Source: a virus. Taken from it: DNA of 36,680 bases. The position numbers were made by a program, and so were the translations under genes. The stretch lies in IMG/VR virus record IMGVR_UViG_3300010354_016967, positions 1-36,680 of that record. One strand, written 5' to 3'. The notes beneath the pieces were generated by a model. The model had not been told where the DNA came from, made no database searches, and saw only the letters and a program-made list of their open reading frames with translations. Within the stretch, counting starts at the first letter, position 1. Each line of letters starts with the position of its first letter. Shown piece after piece: positions 24,028 through 36,678 of the stretch.

Positions 24028-24241
24028 TTTTAATAATCCCTTCAACCCAGTTTTCACACACATCCTCAGCATATTGCATATTAAAGTGAGTGAGGGACCT
24101 TAGTCCTACAGGCTTGTTGTTCTCAAAAAACTCTACCTCGTAGGTTGGTTCACCTTCGATCATGTAAAGACGAGCTGTACGTTCATTACCTTGCCCGTAA
24201 AATTCACTTAACCACACTTTTCTTCCTACACTTTTTTCCAT
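24017..24241 (-). CDS. Conserved small phage protein
   Basis: 74 residues, beta-rich in the middle (RLYMIEGEPTYEVEFFENN) with a helical end (MQYAEDVCENWVEGI). Relatives seem to occur near primase or thyX in marine phages, but I know of no function. It overlaps primase by 16 bases and thyX by 11. Confidence 0.6.
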   Translation of the reverse strand: MEKSVGRKVWLSEFYGQGNERTARLYMIEGEPTYEVEFFENNKPVGLRSLTHFNMQYAEDVCENWVEGIIKNEG

Positions 24242-25251
24242 TGTGTCAACCTCATTTTTGCTTGTAAATCATGAAACGTATTCTCTTTAATAATCTTTTG
24301 TATATCTTCAGAGGATATACCACCACAGATCATTTCATTTATATCTTTATATTGCATGCTATCGGGCCAAATACAAACATTATATCCCATGTCAATAGAT
24401 TTATCAATAGCTTTTACAATATCTTTGTTTCGAGGCTCATTGTCATATACCATTACAGTATTGGAAGGAACAATACCTATCTTTAAAGCCGTTTTATCAA
24501 GGTAAGCACTACCCATGGCAATACAATTAGGAAGGAACATAGAATCAATCGGCCCTTCCACAACAAAGACTTTCTCTCGTACATCTAACTTCTCCAATCC
24601 ATAAACACGTGGCTTCTCATCGTCAAGTATTATCGTTATGTATCTCGGCTCTACATTGAAGAATGCGCGGCCTTGATAACCAAACAAATTGCCATTCTGA
24701 TCTACAAATGGTATCACTAAACGAGGTTCATCCTTCTTACTTAGATCAAACTTATCTGGTTTAAGCTTATTTGTCCACGTTTTGAACTTAGGTGCATAAA
24801 AAAGCTTTGAATGCATGACGGATGGAATCTTCCTTGCAACCACATATCTTTTAGCAGGGTGATCCACTTCAAGCTGAGATATCTTTTTCAATTCAGAAAG
24901 CGCTGTATACTTAATGAATTTCGGTGTAATAAACTTAGAAATGTCGGGAGCCGGTTCAACTATCCTTTCAGTGTTTCCAACACGTTCTAGGAAGGTTTCA
25001 CGCCGGTACTCATTGTATGCTGCAGGATCCACTTGCTCCAGGAACTTGGAGAAGGGTATTGTGATGCCACAGTTGTGACAGGTGTAGATAAATTTACCAT
25101 CCTTGCCTAAAATGTATCCGCGCGCCTTTGTTTTACTTTTCCGTGAGTCACCGCATATTGGACAACGCATATTCCACACGTTATCATCTTTACGAGCAAA
25201 CATAGAAAGTCTAGGTGCAAGAGCACCAATATACTTCACATCAATCCACAT
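24226..25251 (-). CDS. DnaG-type DNA primase (T4 gp61-like)
   Basis: 341 residues, the size of T4 gp61. N-terminal zinc site C30, C33, C58, C61 (CPICG...CHNCG) binds template. The TOPRIM domain is seen as VFVVEGPIDSMF with E232 and D236, and MVYDNEPRNKD later gives the next acidic residue. It makes RNA primers for lagging-strand synthesis. The start at 25251 is preceded by GAGGAG at nine bases, but that site lies in the 3' arm of a strong hairpin (25257-25294), and a promoter overlaps the hairpin. Confidence 0.92.
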   Translation of the reverse strand: MWIDVKYIGALAPRLSMFARKDDNVWNMRCPICGDSRKSKTKARGYILGKDGKFIYTCHNCGITIPFSKFLEQVDPAAYNEYRRETFLERVGNTERIVEPAPDISKFITPKFIKYTALSELKKISQLEVDHPAKRYVVARKIPSVMHSKLFYAPKFKTWTNKLKPDKFDLSKKDEPRLVIPFVDQNGNLFGYQGRAFFNVEPRYITIILDDEKPRVYGLEKLDVREKVFVVEGPIDSMFLPNCIAMGSAYLDKTALKIGIVPSNTVMVYDNEPRNKDIVKAIDKSIDMGYNVCIWPDSMQYKDINEMICGGISSEDIQKIIKENTFHDLQAKMRLTQWKKV

Positions 25252-25256
25252 AATAA

Positions 25257-25294
25257 TTAACTCCTCAAAGCCCAGTGCGACTTTAAGGAGTTAA
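25257..25294 (-). promoter_or_regulatory. Hairpin that covers the primase ribosome binding site
   Basis: On the - strand TTAACTCCTTAAAG (25294-25281), a 10-base loop, and CTTTGAGGAGTTAA (25270-25257) pair over 14 positions, one a G-U wobble. The 3' arm contains GAGGAG, the primase ribosome site. A transcript started at the local promoter (about 25273) would lack the 5' arm and leave the site free. Confidence 0.75.
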
Positions 25295-25308
25295 AGAGGA
25301 AAAGTCAA
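25280..25308 (-). promoter_or_regulatory. Candidate sigma70-type promoter for the primase-nrd operon
   Basis: On the - strand, -35 TTGACT (25308-25303), a 17-base spacer and -10 TAAAGT (25285-25280, two mismatches). It lies in the 60-base gap between the lysis block and primase and would drive the DNA metabolism operon. Confidence 0.6.
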
Positions 25309-25311
25309 CAG

Positions 25312-29109: not shown

Positions 29110-29991
29110 TTAAGCGTTCGAATCAGGTAGTTTAGTATCATCAGAGCCGTCGCCAGAAATCTGACGCGTGGCAACTAGACACTCATACTGAACACGACCA
29201 GCACGGCCACCCTGGCCAACTGTGCGGATGTTCCAGCCAGCTGTAACACGTTTGTTCTTACCACCGGCAAGAGAAGCAATTGCTGTTGCTGTTTCACCAG
29301 TCACGCTATGTCCAGCCTGTGCACCTGTTCCAACAGAAGCAAGATTGATAAACACACCACCGTTATAATCTTCACGATCTGCCGAAAGCTGAATAGCTGA
29401 TGAATTAGCAACAGTTACATAGTATGTTGTATTATTTGCAAGGCCGCCAATCGCAGTATTACCTGCACCAACAAGATACGTTACTTGATCACCGTTAGCT
29501 AACAGTGCAACGTTGGCTGTACCCAGAAGGATAAAACCTTTTACAGTGCTGTTACCGACAACAACACCTGTTGAGTTGCCTGAGAATGTAAGTGCAGCAG
29601 GTGCGGCGATAGTTACTGTAGGATTAGTTGTATAACCAACACCGTTGTTACTAATATTGATAGCTGAAATACGGCCAGTTGCATTAGACGATGCATTAGC
29701 AGCGGCATTTGTTGTACCAGCACCAGAAACAGAAGTGATTGTTACAGCTGCATTAGCATTGTAGCCTGAACCTGCCGAAGTAATAACAATTTCAGCAATG
29801 TTTGTAGCTGTTACCCCGGCTTCTGTTCCATCGACGGCGTACATACCGTGCGTTGCACCAGCAAAATAAGCATTTGCTGTTGTATTTCCATAAAGTGCGT
29901 TAGCATTAGCGCGTGTTGGAGCTTGGCCAAGCTGTGATGGCGCCCAAATCACGCTGTTAGATGCTACGTCTGATAGTCCCCATAATGGCAT
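29110..29991 (-). CDS. Virion structural protein with beta repeats
   Basis: 293 residues. The start PLWGLSDVASNSVIW resembles a virion protein common in T4-like cyanophages and pelagiphages. Two similar units, GSGYNANAAVTITS and GVGYTTNPTVTIAA, point to tandem beta elements. The C-terminus (GRAGRVQYECLVATRQISGD) is basic/polar. It has a late-promoter match (30019-30026) and an AAGGAGAG ribosome site. Confidence 0.7.
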   Translation of the reverse strand: MPLWGLSDVASNSVIWAPSQLGQAPTRANANALYGNTTANAYFAGATHGMYAVDGTEAGVTATNIAEIVITSAGSGYNANAAVTITSVSGAGTTNAAANASSNATGRISAINISNNGVGYTTNPTVTIAAPAALTFSGNSTGVVVGNSTVKGFILLGTANVALLANGDQVTYLVGAGNTAIGGLANNTTYYVTVANSSAIQLSADREDYNGGVFINLASVGTGAQAGHSVTGETATAIASLAGGKNKRVTAGWNIRTVGQGGRAGRVQYECLVATRQISGDGSDDTKLPDSNA

Positions 29992-30018: not shown

Positions 30019-30026
30019 TATTTATG
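30019..30026 (-). promoter_or_regulatory. T4-like late promoter candidate (CATAAATA)
   Basis: The - strand reads CATAAATA (30026-30019), 7 of 8 to the T4 late -10 TATAAATA. It is 28 bases upstream of the virion gene ending at 29110, with a ribosome site between. The predicted start is near 30013. It overlaps the stop of the preceding gene. Confidence 0.55.
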
Positions 30027-32218: not shown

Positions 32219-33532
32219 TTACCTCGTTATCTCTTCCCAGTCCATCGATGCAAGAGCACTGACGGTATTGACTGATCCTGACATTGCAATTGTAAGCGGC
32301 TCAGGGGTATTTGTTAGCCCATTTCGCTGTAATTGAAACTTGAATAGCGCTTCTTTGAGAATATCAATAGTCTGTGAAGCTTGATTAGTTATACCAATGT
32401 ATCCTTGCGCAAGTACTTGTCCACCACTTAAGCCTGTAGCAGAGGTGTCATACTGAACGGAGTCATCTGCATTGACTGTTGTCCAGGAAGGAGATGTCAA
32501 AGTCGTTCCTCTGTATACTCTCCATGCAACACTACAAGGATTTGAATTAATTCCTAAAATAGACAAAGCTGTCAAAATAACAATAGCATCCAGATAGCCA
32601 GATCTTAGCTGAATAGAAACGATAGGATAATATGTACCTGCTGTTGTCAATGTTTTTGGCGTCTGAACTGGTGTACCAACAGATCGTTGATCACCACGCA
32701 ACTCATATCCACCCTCACTGATAACAGTAGAACACACCTGCTTCATTGTACTTGAGCTTGCCGTTGTTCCCGTGTTCTTAATCTCATATCGCAACGGCAG
32801 CGAAGCTGTTGTCATGTATGTTGAATCTATCACGTTAGCGTGATGGAACGAGTGACAGTGAATCATTTTACCGTTAATCACAAAGCCACATCTTACTGTT
32901 CCGAGACCAAGCCATTCAACATCAATGAAAAGAATCTGTGCTTTGGTAAGATCTAAAGTAAGTTGTGAAGGACTCGAGGGCACGGCGCCTAGGAGCGTGT
33001 CAATATTCCAGTTTGATTGAGAAACCCGTGTCTCACTAACTGAACCATTTACATAGGATCTCTCAACAAAATTAATTGTTGCCCCATCTTGCTCAAGATA
33101 AATTCCATTCTGCGCACCATAGTATCCTACACGTTGTCTTAAATTAGCCTTCGCTGAATTCATTACAAATGTACTCATTATCTGCAACGACTTACCTGGC
33201 TGATAAGAAAATACTTTTGTTGTTTCACGAATTATCTCTGCATTAGCTGTAGTATCAAGATTGAGAGCAACAAGACCAGCATTAGCATTATGAGCATACG
33301 TTGCAGTAGCTGTATTCGATGTGCTCCAGAGACCGTTGTCTTTGAATCTATGTGAAGAATCAAATAGTGTAAGTGGTGTTGACATCCTTGCACGACCAAA
33401 CGCATCTACAGCCACACCAGAAGGATTAGCTGGTCCAACTAATGAACCATATTGGTCCGCAAGCATGACGACCTCATATAAGGTCTTATTGTCTTGCAGG
33501 TATTGGTGTGTATCTTTTCTAAACTGTGCCAT
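32219..33532 (-). CDS. Virion structural protein
   Basis: 437 residues, mostly predicted beta. The N-terminus AQFRKDTHQYLQDNKTLYEV, then GVAVDAFGRARMSTPLTLFD, which recalls virion proteins of marine phages. Lectin-like strands follow (FINGKMIHCHSFHHANV). No enzyme motif is seen. It may be a tail or capsid decoration protein. It overlaps no neighbour but is one base from the upstream stop. Confidence 0.65.
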   Translation of the reverse strand: MAQFRKDTHQYLQDNKTLYEVVMLADQYGSLVGPANPSGVAVDAFGRARMSTPLTLFDSSHRFKDNGLWSTSNTATATYAHNANAGLVALNLDTTANAEIIRETTKVFSYQPGKSLQIMSTFVMNSAKANLRQRVGYYGAQNGIYLEQDGATINFVERSYVNGSVSETRVSQSNWNIDTLLGAVPSSPSQLTLDLTKAQILFIDVEWLGLGTVRCGFVINGKMIHCHSFHHANVIDSTYMTTASLPLRYEIKNTGTTASSSTMKQVCSTVISEGGYELRGDQRSVGTPVQTPKTLTTAGTYYPIVSIQLRSGYLDAIVILTALSILGINSNPCSVAWRVYRGTTLTSPSWTTVNADDSVQYDTSATGLSGGQVLAQGYIGITNQASQTIDILKEALFKFQLQRNGLTNTPEPLTIAMSGSVNTVSALASMDWEEITR

Positions 33533-33533
33533 A

Positions 33534-34961
33534 TCAGCAATTCCACTTTCTCAGAGCAAGCGCTTTACGAGTAGGCTCACCATTTGGTTTTTTCATTGGA
33601 CCATCAACACCACTCATGCGAGCACAAAAAGATTTGCGTCTCTTCCACGGTTTGCTGTCTTTTTTAAGCTTGGAAGGCTCTGTTGTTACAGCCATCGAAA
33701 GTTTAGAACCTGGGTTCTGTGCACGATAAGATGCGATACCTTTACGGTTCAAACCACCTTCAGGGTTCTTACCTTCTTTACGAGACCATGCAGGTGTTTT
33801 TGCTTCTGCTACATTGTCCTTCTTTTTATTCTGAGCTTCATAGTCAGTTTGCATCTTCTTCAGTCTTTCTGAAGTAGCAGCGTAGTGTTTGGCTCTATCT
33901 TCTAACGACTGACCAGTTTGTTTTTTAAAACGAGCATTAATAGCATCATAACCAAACTTTTTTGCCTCATCAATTTCCACTTCTTCTTTATGAACTGTAG
34001 CGCCTTTGATCTTGTTGGCTACGTTCTGTGCATGTCTTTGTGATCCAAACGTTTTCCATTTCTTTCCGTTGATGTGGACAGCATGTGGTTCTTGTTTTTC
34101 TGGTGCACGATATGAGCTGTAGCGTTTTCTGCTATAACTTGGCTCGTCGGGTTCATCAGGATTGGCACGTCTGAAGCGCTGAGCAGCAGTATCACCATAT
34201 TCTACAAGGTCAACTTCTTCATTCTTGGGAACACAATTAGGTACTTCACGACCAGCTTTAATCTTCTTACCGACCATGTGATACCCCTTCCAGCAAGGAT
34301 CTTCACCCTTCATTTTTTCTTCTTTTTGTTCGCCTGGAGTGTCAGCCTTATACGTTTTCACAAGACTCTTTGTTCCTTCGAAGCGTTTCATTGGGCTTTC
34401 GACACCCTCGAGATAAGAATTGTACTTTTGTGCAAGATGCTTCTTTGCTTCCATCTCATTGTCTGTTGTATGCTTGATACGACCCTTTGCATCAACGACA
34501 TGAAACACTGGTCTGTTGTTGTATGGACTTTTCTCACGTTTAATGTGAGGACGAGCAGCACCACCAGTCCCTTTCAACTGCTTAGTAAACAGACGCTCGT
34601 TGATAGGAAGAAGATCATAGTCTTCTTGCATAGCAGCACCACCAGCAAGGAATGAGTTAACTCTATTCATTGCATGCTGTTCGCGGGTGAGACTGGAATT
34701 GATTGGTAGGGATTTGATGCCGCGAATGAACACTTGTTCAATAACGTCAGCAGGCATATCATGACGTGAAGCTTTTGCGCTGAGAACGAGTTTTGTTTTT
34801 TCTTCAACAGCTACACGGTGGTTCTGAACCGCACGTAGGAAATTCTCTTTGTATGGGACCGGAGTCTGAATTTCTGGTGGGTTTAAAATAATTTGCGATT
34901 TCTTGCCATTTTTACCAACAGCAACTTTTTTATCGTCTTTTTTGTCTTTGTCTGTATCCAT
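33534..34961 (-). CDS. Mosaic basic virion protein with C-terminal FCARM domain
   Basis: 475 residues, a string of short modules joined by charged linkers: LPINERLFTKQLKGTGG (about 118), DPCWKGYHMVGKKIKAG...VPNCVP (221-245), HINGKKWKTFGSQRHAQNVA (296-315), FGYDAINARFKKQTG (336-350), and AWSRKEGKNPEGGLNRKG...FCARMSG...LRKWNC (391-475), which I recall as DUF6321-like. IDEA at 330-333 matches the T4 prohead protease pattern, so cleavage into pieces is possible. It is preceded by a late promoter and a hairpin covering its ribosome site. Confidence 0.65.
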   Translation of the reverse strand: MDTDKDKKDDKKVAVGKNGKKSQIILNPPEIQTPVPYKENFLRAVQNHRVAVEEKTKLVLSAKASRHDMPADVIEQVFIRGIKSLPINSSLTREQHAMNRVNSFLAGGAAMQEDYDLLPINERLFTKQLKGTGGAARPHIKREKSPYNNRPVFHVVDAKGRIKHTTDNEMEAKKHLAQKYNSYLEGVESPMKRFEGTKSLVKTYKADTPGEQKEEKMKGEDPCWKGYHMVGKKIKAGREVPNCVPKNEEVDLVEYGDTAAQRFRRANPDEPDEPSYSRKRYSSYRAPEKQEPHAVHINGKKWKTFGSQRHAQNVANKIKGATVHKEEVEIDEAKKFGYDAINARFKKQTGQSLEDRAKHYAATSERLKKMQTDYEAQNKKKDNVAEAKTPAWSRKEGKNPEGGLNRKGIASYRAQNPGSKLSMAVTTEPSKLKKDSKPWKRRKSFCARMSGVDGPMKKPNGEPTRKALALRKWNC

Positions 34962-34965
34962 ATTT

Positions 34966-34997
34966 CCTCAGAGGTTTACCTTAGCCTAACTCTGAGG
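34966..34997 (-). promoter_or_regulatory. Hairpin covering the ribosome site of the 475-residue virion gene
   Basis: On the - strand CCTCAGAG (34997-34990) pairs perfectly with CTCTGAGG (34973-34966) across a 16-base loop. The 3' arm contains GAGGAAA, the ribosome site four bases before the ATG at 34961. No T-run follows, so it is not a terminator. Confidence 0.65.
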
Positions 34998-34998
34998 G

Positions 34999-35006
34999 TA
35001 TTTATA
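34999..35006 (-). promoter_or_regulatory. T4 late promoter match TATAAATA
   Basis: The - strand reads TATAAATA exactly (35006-34999), the T4 late -10 element. The expected start, six bases on, is near 34993, inside the 5' arm of the hairpin at 34966-34997. Transcripts from here lose the bases that would cover the ribosome site. Confidence 0.7.
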
Positions 35007-35010
35007 AAAA

Positions 35011-36678
35011 TTATTCTCCGCCGCCTGAGCTAGAACTTTTTCCTGGAAAGTCTTTACGTAACTTCATGTCAGCGCCACGAAATTTAATTTTGTGAATTCT
35101 TTGCATACGACCAGTCACAGCGCGAACAAACAGCTCTTGCAGACCCATCCCACGGCGTACATCAGAGTATAAATCGTCTTTATGATGTTTTTCTAACTTA
35201 TCAGGAAGTGCTGCGTGAAATTCTTTTTTCTTACCAGACGATGCAAGTTCACGCATCTTGCTGGCAGACATACCCTCAACACCCTCTGAATCCGGATCGC
35301 GCTCACCTGAAGAATGTACCGTTATAGATTTAAATTTATAAGAGCCGTGTCTACTCTCAACCCCATTGTATTTGTCTAATAAGTCTTGGTACTCTTTTTG
35401 ACGATCAGACCCTGCTACAACATGTAGATGAGTAATACCTCTTTTATGCATCTCAGCAGCGTGGTGGAGGATAGTGGGTTTGTCTTTTGTTGCAGCTTCG
35501 ACATGAGAGTCTTTTGGGAAAATACGCAAAGCGTGTTTAACTTTTTGATCTGACGTTAAAGGATCTTTTTCTATCCTTTTCTTTTTGGCTGCTGGTGTTT
35601 CTTTTTCTGGTGCCGATGCTGCAGATAACACAACCCTATGATCTACAGCATTCTTCTCTTTAGCAACATCCAACACCTTTTGCGCTACTGCAGCATGCCC
35701 AGCAGTTGGGGGATTCATTCTACCAAATGCAAGTACGCCGTGCTTTTCTTCTTGAGCGGGTGCTTTCTCTTTCTCTTTTTCTTTTGCAACTTTGAGAGCT
35801 TCACCACGTTGGAAGTTTGCTTTACTGAACTCAGCTCTATCAACTAACTTTGTTGGTCGACCATCAATGGTGACAACAGCTCCTTCTGGCTTGGTATCTT
35901 CTTCACCAATCTTTGTACCAAACGCACCTTGTGCAGCAGGTGTTATAGCATGAACAAGAGTGTCTTTAGCTTTCTGTAAGTGTGAATGTAGTTCCAAAGC
36001 AGATGTGATATGCTTTTTATCTTGGTCAATCTGCTGTAAAGTAAGATTGTGTGCTTTGAGACGAGTGGCTTTGCCAGCTTCCGTCTTCAGCTTGTCGATA
36101 TCTTTCTTACCACGCTCGTCAACGTACTGTTTGAATCCTTCTGCCGTTGGTTGTGTTTCGTCTTTAATGTTTTTGTTAATAAACATTTTTAAAGTGTCGG
36201 TATGACGCATCGCAGCTTCATATCCACCTTTTGCAAGCTTTTTATGTGTTGCTTCTGCAGCGGCCATATGGTCATCAAAAGCTTGCAAAGTCTTTTTATC
36301 GAAATGAGATCCTGTTGCATCTACCTCTGGTGAAATCATATGCACATCTGGATGTTCTTTGAACGACTTTTGATTTACATCGAAGTGAGCCTTCATAGAC
36401 TCAAAATCTTTGCCTTTATACTGTGTATGAACAACAACGCCCAGCTTTGAAGCTGCTATCTTACGGCCTTCAGGAGACCCTTGCTTTGTCGTGTATGTAA
36501 TCGTGTTCGGAGTAAAATGATACTCATCACCACGCTTTTTTACATCCTTCGACCCTGAATGCATAATGTCGCCTTGGTATATTCCTTTGTCAGGAGCTAC
36601 CTTTGGCAAATGCTTCAATGCATCTTTGAGCTTTTCAACGAGTCCAGGAGCATGTCCGTGGTTACGTTCAATGTCATC
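35011..36678 (-). CDS. Virion-associated protein with nucleotidyltransferase domain, 5'-truncated
   Basis: The frame runs open to the window end, so the true start is outside; 555 residues are visible and a TTG at 36618 is not a real start. The N-terminal part (HLPKVAPDKGIYQGDIMHSG) resembles a phage domain I recall as DUF6267. Around residues 320-500 is a nucleotidyltransferase fold: GVLAFGRMNPPTAGHAAV with TAGH in place of HxGH, LHVVAGSDRQKEY, and GMSASKMRELA matching the ISxTxxR motif. The C-terminus is basic and ends GKSSSSGGGE. Similar proteins occur in marine T4-like phages; NAD- or CTP-type chemistry is possible. Confidence 0.7.
   Translation of the reverse strand, partial: DDIERNHGHAPGLVEKLKDALKHLPKVAPDKGIYQGDIMHSGSKDVKKRGDEYHFTPNTITYTTKQGSPEGRKIAASKLGVVVHTQYKGKDFESMKAHFDVNQKSFKEHPDVHMISPEVDATGSHFDKKTLQAFDDHMAAAEATHKKLAKGGYEAAMRHTDTLKMFINKNIKDETQPTAEGFKQYVDERGKKDIDKLKTEAGKATRLKAHNLTLQQIDQDKKHITSALELHSHLQKAKDTLVHAITPAAQGAFGTKIGEEDTKPEGAVVTIDGRPTKLVDRAEFSKANFQRGEALKVAKEKEKEKAPAQEEKHGVLAFGRMNPPTAGHAAVAQKVLDVAKEKNAVDHRVVLSAASAPEKETPAAKKKRIEKDPLTSDQKVKHALRIFPKDSHVEAATKDKPTILHHAAEMHKRGITHLHVVAGSDRQKEYQDLLDKYNGVESRHGSYKFKSITVHSSGERDPDSEGVEGMSASKMRELASSGKKKEFHAALPDKLEKHHKDDLYSDVRRGMGLQELFVRAVTGRMQRIHKIKFRGADMKLRKDFPGKSSSSGGGE

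Follow-up and report, generated by a model that had tools for sequence, protein, structure and literature searches.

The window analysed here is a whole virus record of 36.7 kb, whose proteins point to T4-like phages. The site of interest lies on its minus strand, in the 49 bases between the stop codon of an upstream ORF (35013-35011) and the ATG at 34961. Read along this strand, TATAAATA is followed by a single C (34998), CCTCAGAG, TTAGGCTAAGGTAAAC, CTCTGAGG, AAAT and the ATG, and the features of the locus are as follows.

35011-36678, minus: upstream ORF, open at the window end, with DUF6267 and nucleotidyltransferase-like matches; presumed source of read-through RNA
34999-35006, minus: TATAAATA, T4-type late promoter, its sole exact copy in the window
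34997-34990, minus: CCTCAGAG, 5' arm of an 8-bp stem
34994-34997, minus: CCTC, lower part of the 5' arm, complementary to GAGG and upstream of the predicted late start (folding)
34993, minus: predicted late transcript start, from geometry (sixth base after TATAAATA) and folding of starts 34998-34986
34990-34993, minus: AGAG, conserved upper part of the 5' arm (R1 match 34968-34995; GAG in 10 of 10 orthologous leaders)
34989-34974, minus: TTAGGCTAAGGTAAAC, loop
34986-34989, minus: TTAG, conserved 5' internal loop (T7, A9 and G10 invariant in the 70 rows of alignment A1)
34978-34985, minus: inner 2-bp stem GC/GT closing a TAAG tetraloop (A1)
34974-34977, minus: AAAC, conserved 3' internal loop (A19 and C22 invariant in A1)
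34966-34973, minus: CTCTGAGG, 3' arm, with GAGG (34969-34966) as ribosome site (sequence and folding)
33534-34961, minus: 475-aa ORF, its N-terminal part common to other element-headed proteins, DUF6321 at its C-terminus
32219-33532, minus: next ORF, 437 aa, phrog_1645 virion structural protein

The exact T4-type late promoter and the 8-bp stem with the ribosome site in its 3' arm, both proposed in the initial annotation, are present. CCTCAGAG and CTCTGAGG enclose a 16-nt loop, GAGG falls within the 3' arm, and a fold from TATAAATA to the ATG returns the 8-bp stem at about -13.7 kcal/mol. Two details of that annotation are to be corrected: the promoter does not lie inside the hairpin but adjoins it, ending 1 nt before the stem, and the description of the 475-aa product as a virion protein is not borne out, its matches being limited to PHROGs of unknown function and Pfam DUF6321. 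Among named phages, the homologues of the 437-aa neighbour with the best coverage belong to cyanophages (Kyanoviridae in both records examined) and to HMO-2011.

Late promoter sequences and late genes

In the window TATAAATA occurs once against 2.3 copies expected, a count within chance, so that the octamer alone proves nothing and the evidence for a promoter resides in its position and conservation. The related sequence NATAAATA has three copies, all on the coding strand, of which those at 34999 and 30019 each precede the start of an ORF, the third one overlapping an ATG. The second of these, reading CATAAATA at 30019-30026, stands 28 nt before a 293-aa ORF (29110-29991, with a weak match to a head closure Hc2 PHROG) and is likely a second late promoter. 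Late promoters of such form are described for cyanophages in the pertinent section of PMC2984593. A larger relative, the 157-kb record G003, carries 12 copies of TATAAATA on the forward strand and none on the reverse (0 and 0 for the reversed control), and each of the 12 has an ORF start 15-90 nt downstream; G016, read in short stretches, is less clear-cut, with such an ORF at 2 of 9 sites. As for the late sigma factor and the clamp, homologues of gp55 (phrog_234) and gp45 (phrog_223) were recovered in G003 and G008 and of gp45 in G014, all of which bear the hairpin element described below; neither was recovered in the 36.7-kb window fragment itself. The late start is placed throughout at the sixth base after TATAAATA, an offset that we assume to carry over from T4.

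Shape and conservation of the hairpin

Many loci around homologues of both neighbouring genes present TATAAATA followed by leaders similar to that of the window. What these leaders have in common is the top of the stem, an outer stem interrupted by UNAG on the 5' side and ARWC on the 3' side, with a 2-bp inner stem and a YANR tetraloop at its apex. In relatives the element is located behind NATAAATA, adjoining or over the ribosome site, and is often in tandem, many relatives carrying two hairpins of which the second covers the ribosome site. Once three coding-region matches had been skipped, 71 distinct 28-mers were gathered, and exclusion of one further coding-region match left the 70 aligned in A1, in which T7, A9, G10, A14, G16, A19 and C22 are invariant. 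Both inner pairs change on either side in this alignment; its rows were picked by a pairing rule, so that its pair counts are not proof of pairing, and sets selected by loop sequence were used instead. A hairpin descriptor gave 17 matches in 1.10 Mb (base-shuffled mean 4), 16 of them immediately 5' of a start codon; 15 of these 16, second tandem copies counted, are in leaders with TATAAATA, and the remaining one (L074) has CTAAATA.

The loop-only scan ignored pairing and left out matches less than 50 nt from the 5' end or less than 40 nt from the 3' end of a locus, and produced 61 distinct matches among the 120 stretches listed, a lower bound. Among these, 45 have NATAAATA within 45 nt, and an ORF starts within 110 nt in 44 of the 45. 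Outer stems of at least 3 bp occur in 41 of the 45 listed matches with NATAAATA (the other four having an extra T) versus 3 of the 16 listed without it, the other 13 of which have outer stems of at most 2 bp. For the outer stem, 37 distinct 28-mers selected by loop show its four pairs formed in 33, 37, 33 and 29 cases, with 1, 3, 3 and 4 standard pair types, respectively. Selection on the loop sequence alone thus still yields pairing in the outer stem, and the hairpin is more than a chance palindrome. Indeed, a chance palindrome or a terminator of the upstream gene is an extremely improbable account of the site: the occurrence of TATAAATA in the window is by itself compatible with chance, but the order of elements is conserved in nine orthologous leaders and pairing is kept in the loop-selected sets. 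In all ten orthologous leaders, the window included, NATAAATA, hairpin and GAGG follow in the same order, one of them reading CATAAATA. An intrinsic terminator was also considered and rejected, since the stem is followed by GAGGAAATATG and no T run.

The position of the hairpin within the predicted mRNA invites a further reading, that of a 5'-terminal stabiliser in which a hairpin at the start of the late mRNA blocks 5'-end-dependent decay. The predicted start at the hairpin foot would suit such a role, as would the spacing of the loop, which begins 9 or 13-14 nt past the promoter in 32 of 45 cases among the matches listed, and locus L140 (1430-1475), where the first hairpin is without the conserved loop and an 8-bp stem (GGGAGCAG/CTGCTCCC) is kept behind TATAAATA. 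However, a stabiliser needs the stem alone, yet the loop bases are invariant, and in the leaders tabulated the last hairpin adjoins or covers the ribosome site, making this a very unlikely explanation.

Model R1, for which the window supplied one of the 70 building rows, finds a single match in the window (33.5 bits, E 1.8e-8). Rfam covariance models at the gathering score found 0 matches in the window and 11 loci, permissive Rfam scans of three stretches gave low unrelated scores only, and a search of open-licence papers found no description of the hairpin element. Comparison of the leaders with named phages by blastn gave chance-level matches only, and the second-hairpin pattern had 0 matches in genome contigs, which, for a single exact pattern, is weak evidence against a bacterial origin. 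An H-type pseudoknot between the two hairpins (AGGCT/AGCCT) was considered and rejected, as L168, L144 and L075 lack the complementarity and each half fits its own hairpin.

Distribution over genomes and the downstream gene family

Over whole records, R1 matches 13 of 29 at E 0.1 or better (G021 being a weak partial match), always at one place and mostly as a pair, and in a second set it matches 8 of 12, at one place each save for two weak extra matches; the scanned records were picked for yielding loci, and these fractions are not frequencies. The single place holds also in records of 157 kb and 163 kb. Of 80 loci surrounding the 437-aa gene, R1 matches 31 at E 0.1 or better, with one match doubtful, and many of these loci are without a detectable element. 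Behind the element, 36 of 37 first ORFs fall into one BLASTP network, the exception being a DUF6267 protein; the network comprises the first ORFs of two locus sets (element-bearing and orthologous leaders) rather than of every locus, and single-linkage clustering of mosaic proteins may join different domains. The part common to element-headed proteins lies near residues 50-120 of the 475-aa protein. A model of this common N-terminal domain (mean pLDDT 71) gave no PDB match reaching E 0.001; against a viral library its matches below E 0.001 are solely DUF5824/DUF6321 and unnamed proteins, and structure comparison with both sets recognised no RNA-binding fold in it. Taken on sequence comparison, then, the hairpin is retained across many phages at one place before one mosaic protein family; such conservation at a single location per genome, by the ribosome site of one family of genes, is also what would be expected of an autogenous phage translational operator.

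Pfam DUF5824 is found in many other element-headed proteins and nucleotidyltransferase domains in several, and the latter raise the question of a small riboswitch, in which the single or tandem hairpin would bind a metabolite such as a nucleotide and control translation. A compact conserved loop, changing stems and tandem copies would all accord with this notion. It is nevertheless quite unlikely, for Pfam finds no nucleotidyltransferase domain in the gene downstream in the window, the scanned elements match no Rfam family, and a 2-bp inner stem would seem small for a ligand pocket.

The element is also carried by cultured phages. Stenotrophomonas phage DLP6 (168-kb record) has one R1 match (54004-54030, E 1.4e-4), eight bases 5' of a homologous nucleotidyltransferase gene, and no NATAAATA in the 6.9-kb stretch read, so that the hairpin is separable from the promoter. 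A variant whose tetraloop is UUCG precedes the homologous gene, behind CTAAATA, in the Sinorhizobium phages phiM12 and phiN3; it was found by eye and R1 does not match it in phiM12, so that it carries no score. In phiM12 this gene occupies 180250-182058 of KF381361, and the 5' loop of the element is longer, as it is in L316 and L323. CTAAATA occurs 26 times in phiM12 versus 9 for the control, 31-35 nt before CDS starts at 6 of 11 sites examined, gp4 and gp48 included, and behaves like a late promoter in both phiM12 (L331) and phiN3 (L338). No R1 match was obtained in C48C1, HTVC008M, Melnitz, S-SRM01, S-RIM12, B23, S-SM1 or T4.

Predicted masking of the ribosome site and comparison with known leaders

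In T4, genes e and 49 are classic examples of promoter placement that lets the start of the transcript determine translation, and to our knowledge there are few examples of start-site-gated leaders beyond close T4 relatives. The initial annotation had proposed that a start near 34993 drops CCTC, the bases that pair with GAGG, and folding agrees: the mean unpaired probability of GAGG rises from 0.00 in read-through RNA to about 0.8-0.9 in RNA begun at 34993. Averaged over positions -14 to -5, the value rises from 0.17 to 0.54 in the window; T4 gene 49, tested alike, goes from 0.03 to 0.56. Of the other T4 controls, e moves from 0.30 to 0.84 with its nearer promoter and to only 0.41 with its farther one, and soc from 0.70 to 0.84. 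The mask geometry recurs, by folding, in L054, and a comparable change is seen in phiM12 and phiN3, where the ribosome site is sequestered by five bases of the read-through RNA (unpaired 0.18 and 0.00) that would be absent from the predicted late RNA (0.52 and 0.40).

These results might be taken to mean that the site is a switch of the e/soc/49 type and nothing else, read-through RNA hiding the ribosome site, the short late RNA exposing it, and the conserved loop being incidental. Apart from the window, L054 and phiM12/phiN3, this reading draws on T4 gene 49, which has the same layout and a similar folding result, and on the ten orthologous leaders with the hairpin enforced: the GG of the site then finds partners among the bases before the start in 10 of 10 (0.66-1.00), a weak pairing, versus means of 0.24-0.54 for spacers grafted from tandem-class leaders. 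When folded freely, however, none of the nine orthologous leaders masks its site strongly, the changes being -0.13 to +0.17, and over 52 leaders the median opening is 0.08, exceeding 0.4 in three (the window, L054 and L200); 5 of 57 leaders had been excluded as without a recognised ribosome site, L094 being plainly a false match, and L248 is counted twice. Nor would a switch alone explain the invariant loop bases, the tandem copies or the DLP6 element without NATAAATA, and as a complete account it is unlikely, though not far-fetched. CCTC in that sequence form is not shared by the nine orthologous leaders, and spacer energy is outstanding in the window alone, where none of 300 random spacers does as well. 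Since the orthologous leaders show no strong opening, the strong mask appears peculiar to the window phage and a few others, perhaps overlying a shared weak pairing tendency. The e/soc/49 logic of the initial annotation thus stands, by folding, for the window, L054 and phiM12/phiN3, but not for the nine orthologous leaders folded freely.

The reading preferred here, which we put at about an even chance, is that the site is a late-promoter leader module for one late gene, combining a conserved hairpin read by a putative trans-acting factor with a start-site-dependent mask. With a gp55-type late promoter, the mRNA would begin at the base of a short, conserved hairpin set against the ribosome site; the hairpin would be bound by a factor acting in trans, most probably a phage protein and possibly the product itself, which would control ribosome access to the late mRNA. 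In the window phage, transcripts reading through from the upstream gene would have their ribosome site buried by an added 4-bp lower stem, which RNA begun at the late promoter, with its predicted start near 34993, would lack, as in T4 e and 49. The assignment of the hairpin as a putative binding site follows from its fixed loop bases, free stems, tandem copies, single place and single gene family. Because the hairpin recurs before related genes with matching changes of paired bases, it is probably, together with the promoter, a real on/off control for one late protein. What is conserved would then be the hairpin kept by the predicted late transcript, and the start-site switch a sound, lineage-specific layer on top of it. 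More tentatively, with confidence slightly short of even, these elements may represent a new phage operator RNA family in many uncultured and at least two cultured T4-superfamily groups, coupling transcription timing to translation, in which the late promoter would decide the outer mask and a phage protein would read the single or tandem hairpin and control one mosaic late protein.

Several known systems offer points of comparison. In the account of T4 given in part in PMC3014915, e and 49 (also soc and I-TevI) have a late promoter inside a structure masking the ribosome site. Like e and 49 as presented there, the window has a late promoter directly before a stem and the ribosome site in the 3' arm, and the predicted start removes part of the 5' arm; the folding of 49 and of the second e promoter shifts in the same direction. 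Unlike them, so far as that section describes their leaders, it has a conserved internal-loop hairpin that is retained by the predicted late RNA, is often in tandem, and occurs without NATAAATA in DLP6. The same source treats T4/RB69 gp43 and T4 gp32 as autogenous translational operators, where, similarly, translation of a single gene is controlled by an RNA element situated at its ribosome site, such control being putative here; unlike those operators as outlined in that source, the present element is coupled to a late promoter, the comparison being one of description and not of sequence. The manA, wcaG and PhotoRC-II motifs of T4-like cyanophages (in the relevant portion of PMC2864571) are likewise structured RNA leaders of T4-like phages known largely from metagenomes, from which the scanned elements differ, on that portion's description, in having no Rfam match and in the genes they precede. 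A glutamine riboswitch proposed in the Methylophilales phage Melnitz (a passage of PMC9004378) is similarly an RNA control element in a phage of the same broad group; the Melnitz record itself has no R1 match despite a homologous gene. The present leaders would thus add to the layout of T4 e/49, in distant phages, a binding-site-like hairpin absent from Rfam in the scans made. Its carriage by cultured phiM12/phiN3 and DLP6 makes the idea testable in a harmless soil bacterium and not just in metagenome contigs, and the search for a factor reading the hairpin becomes concrete.

The initial annotation had also seen in this site and in a hairpin before the primase gene a general control scheme. 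The element occurs at one place per record, which argues against any genome-wide scheme. The primase hairpin, at 25251-25310 on the minus strand of the window before the primase ORF (24226-25251), has 16 bp and pairs the GAGGAG ribosome site; a 111-nt fold gives -30.6 kcal/mol, and there is neither NATAAATA nor an R1 match at this place, so that it is a different device. Plain hairpins directly after TATAAATA were also observed in late leaders at L292 (262), L057 (3742), L059 (1396) and L066 (4956). That of L059 ends in a T run and is terminator-like, and it might be inactivated by late transcription beginning within the hairpin.
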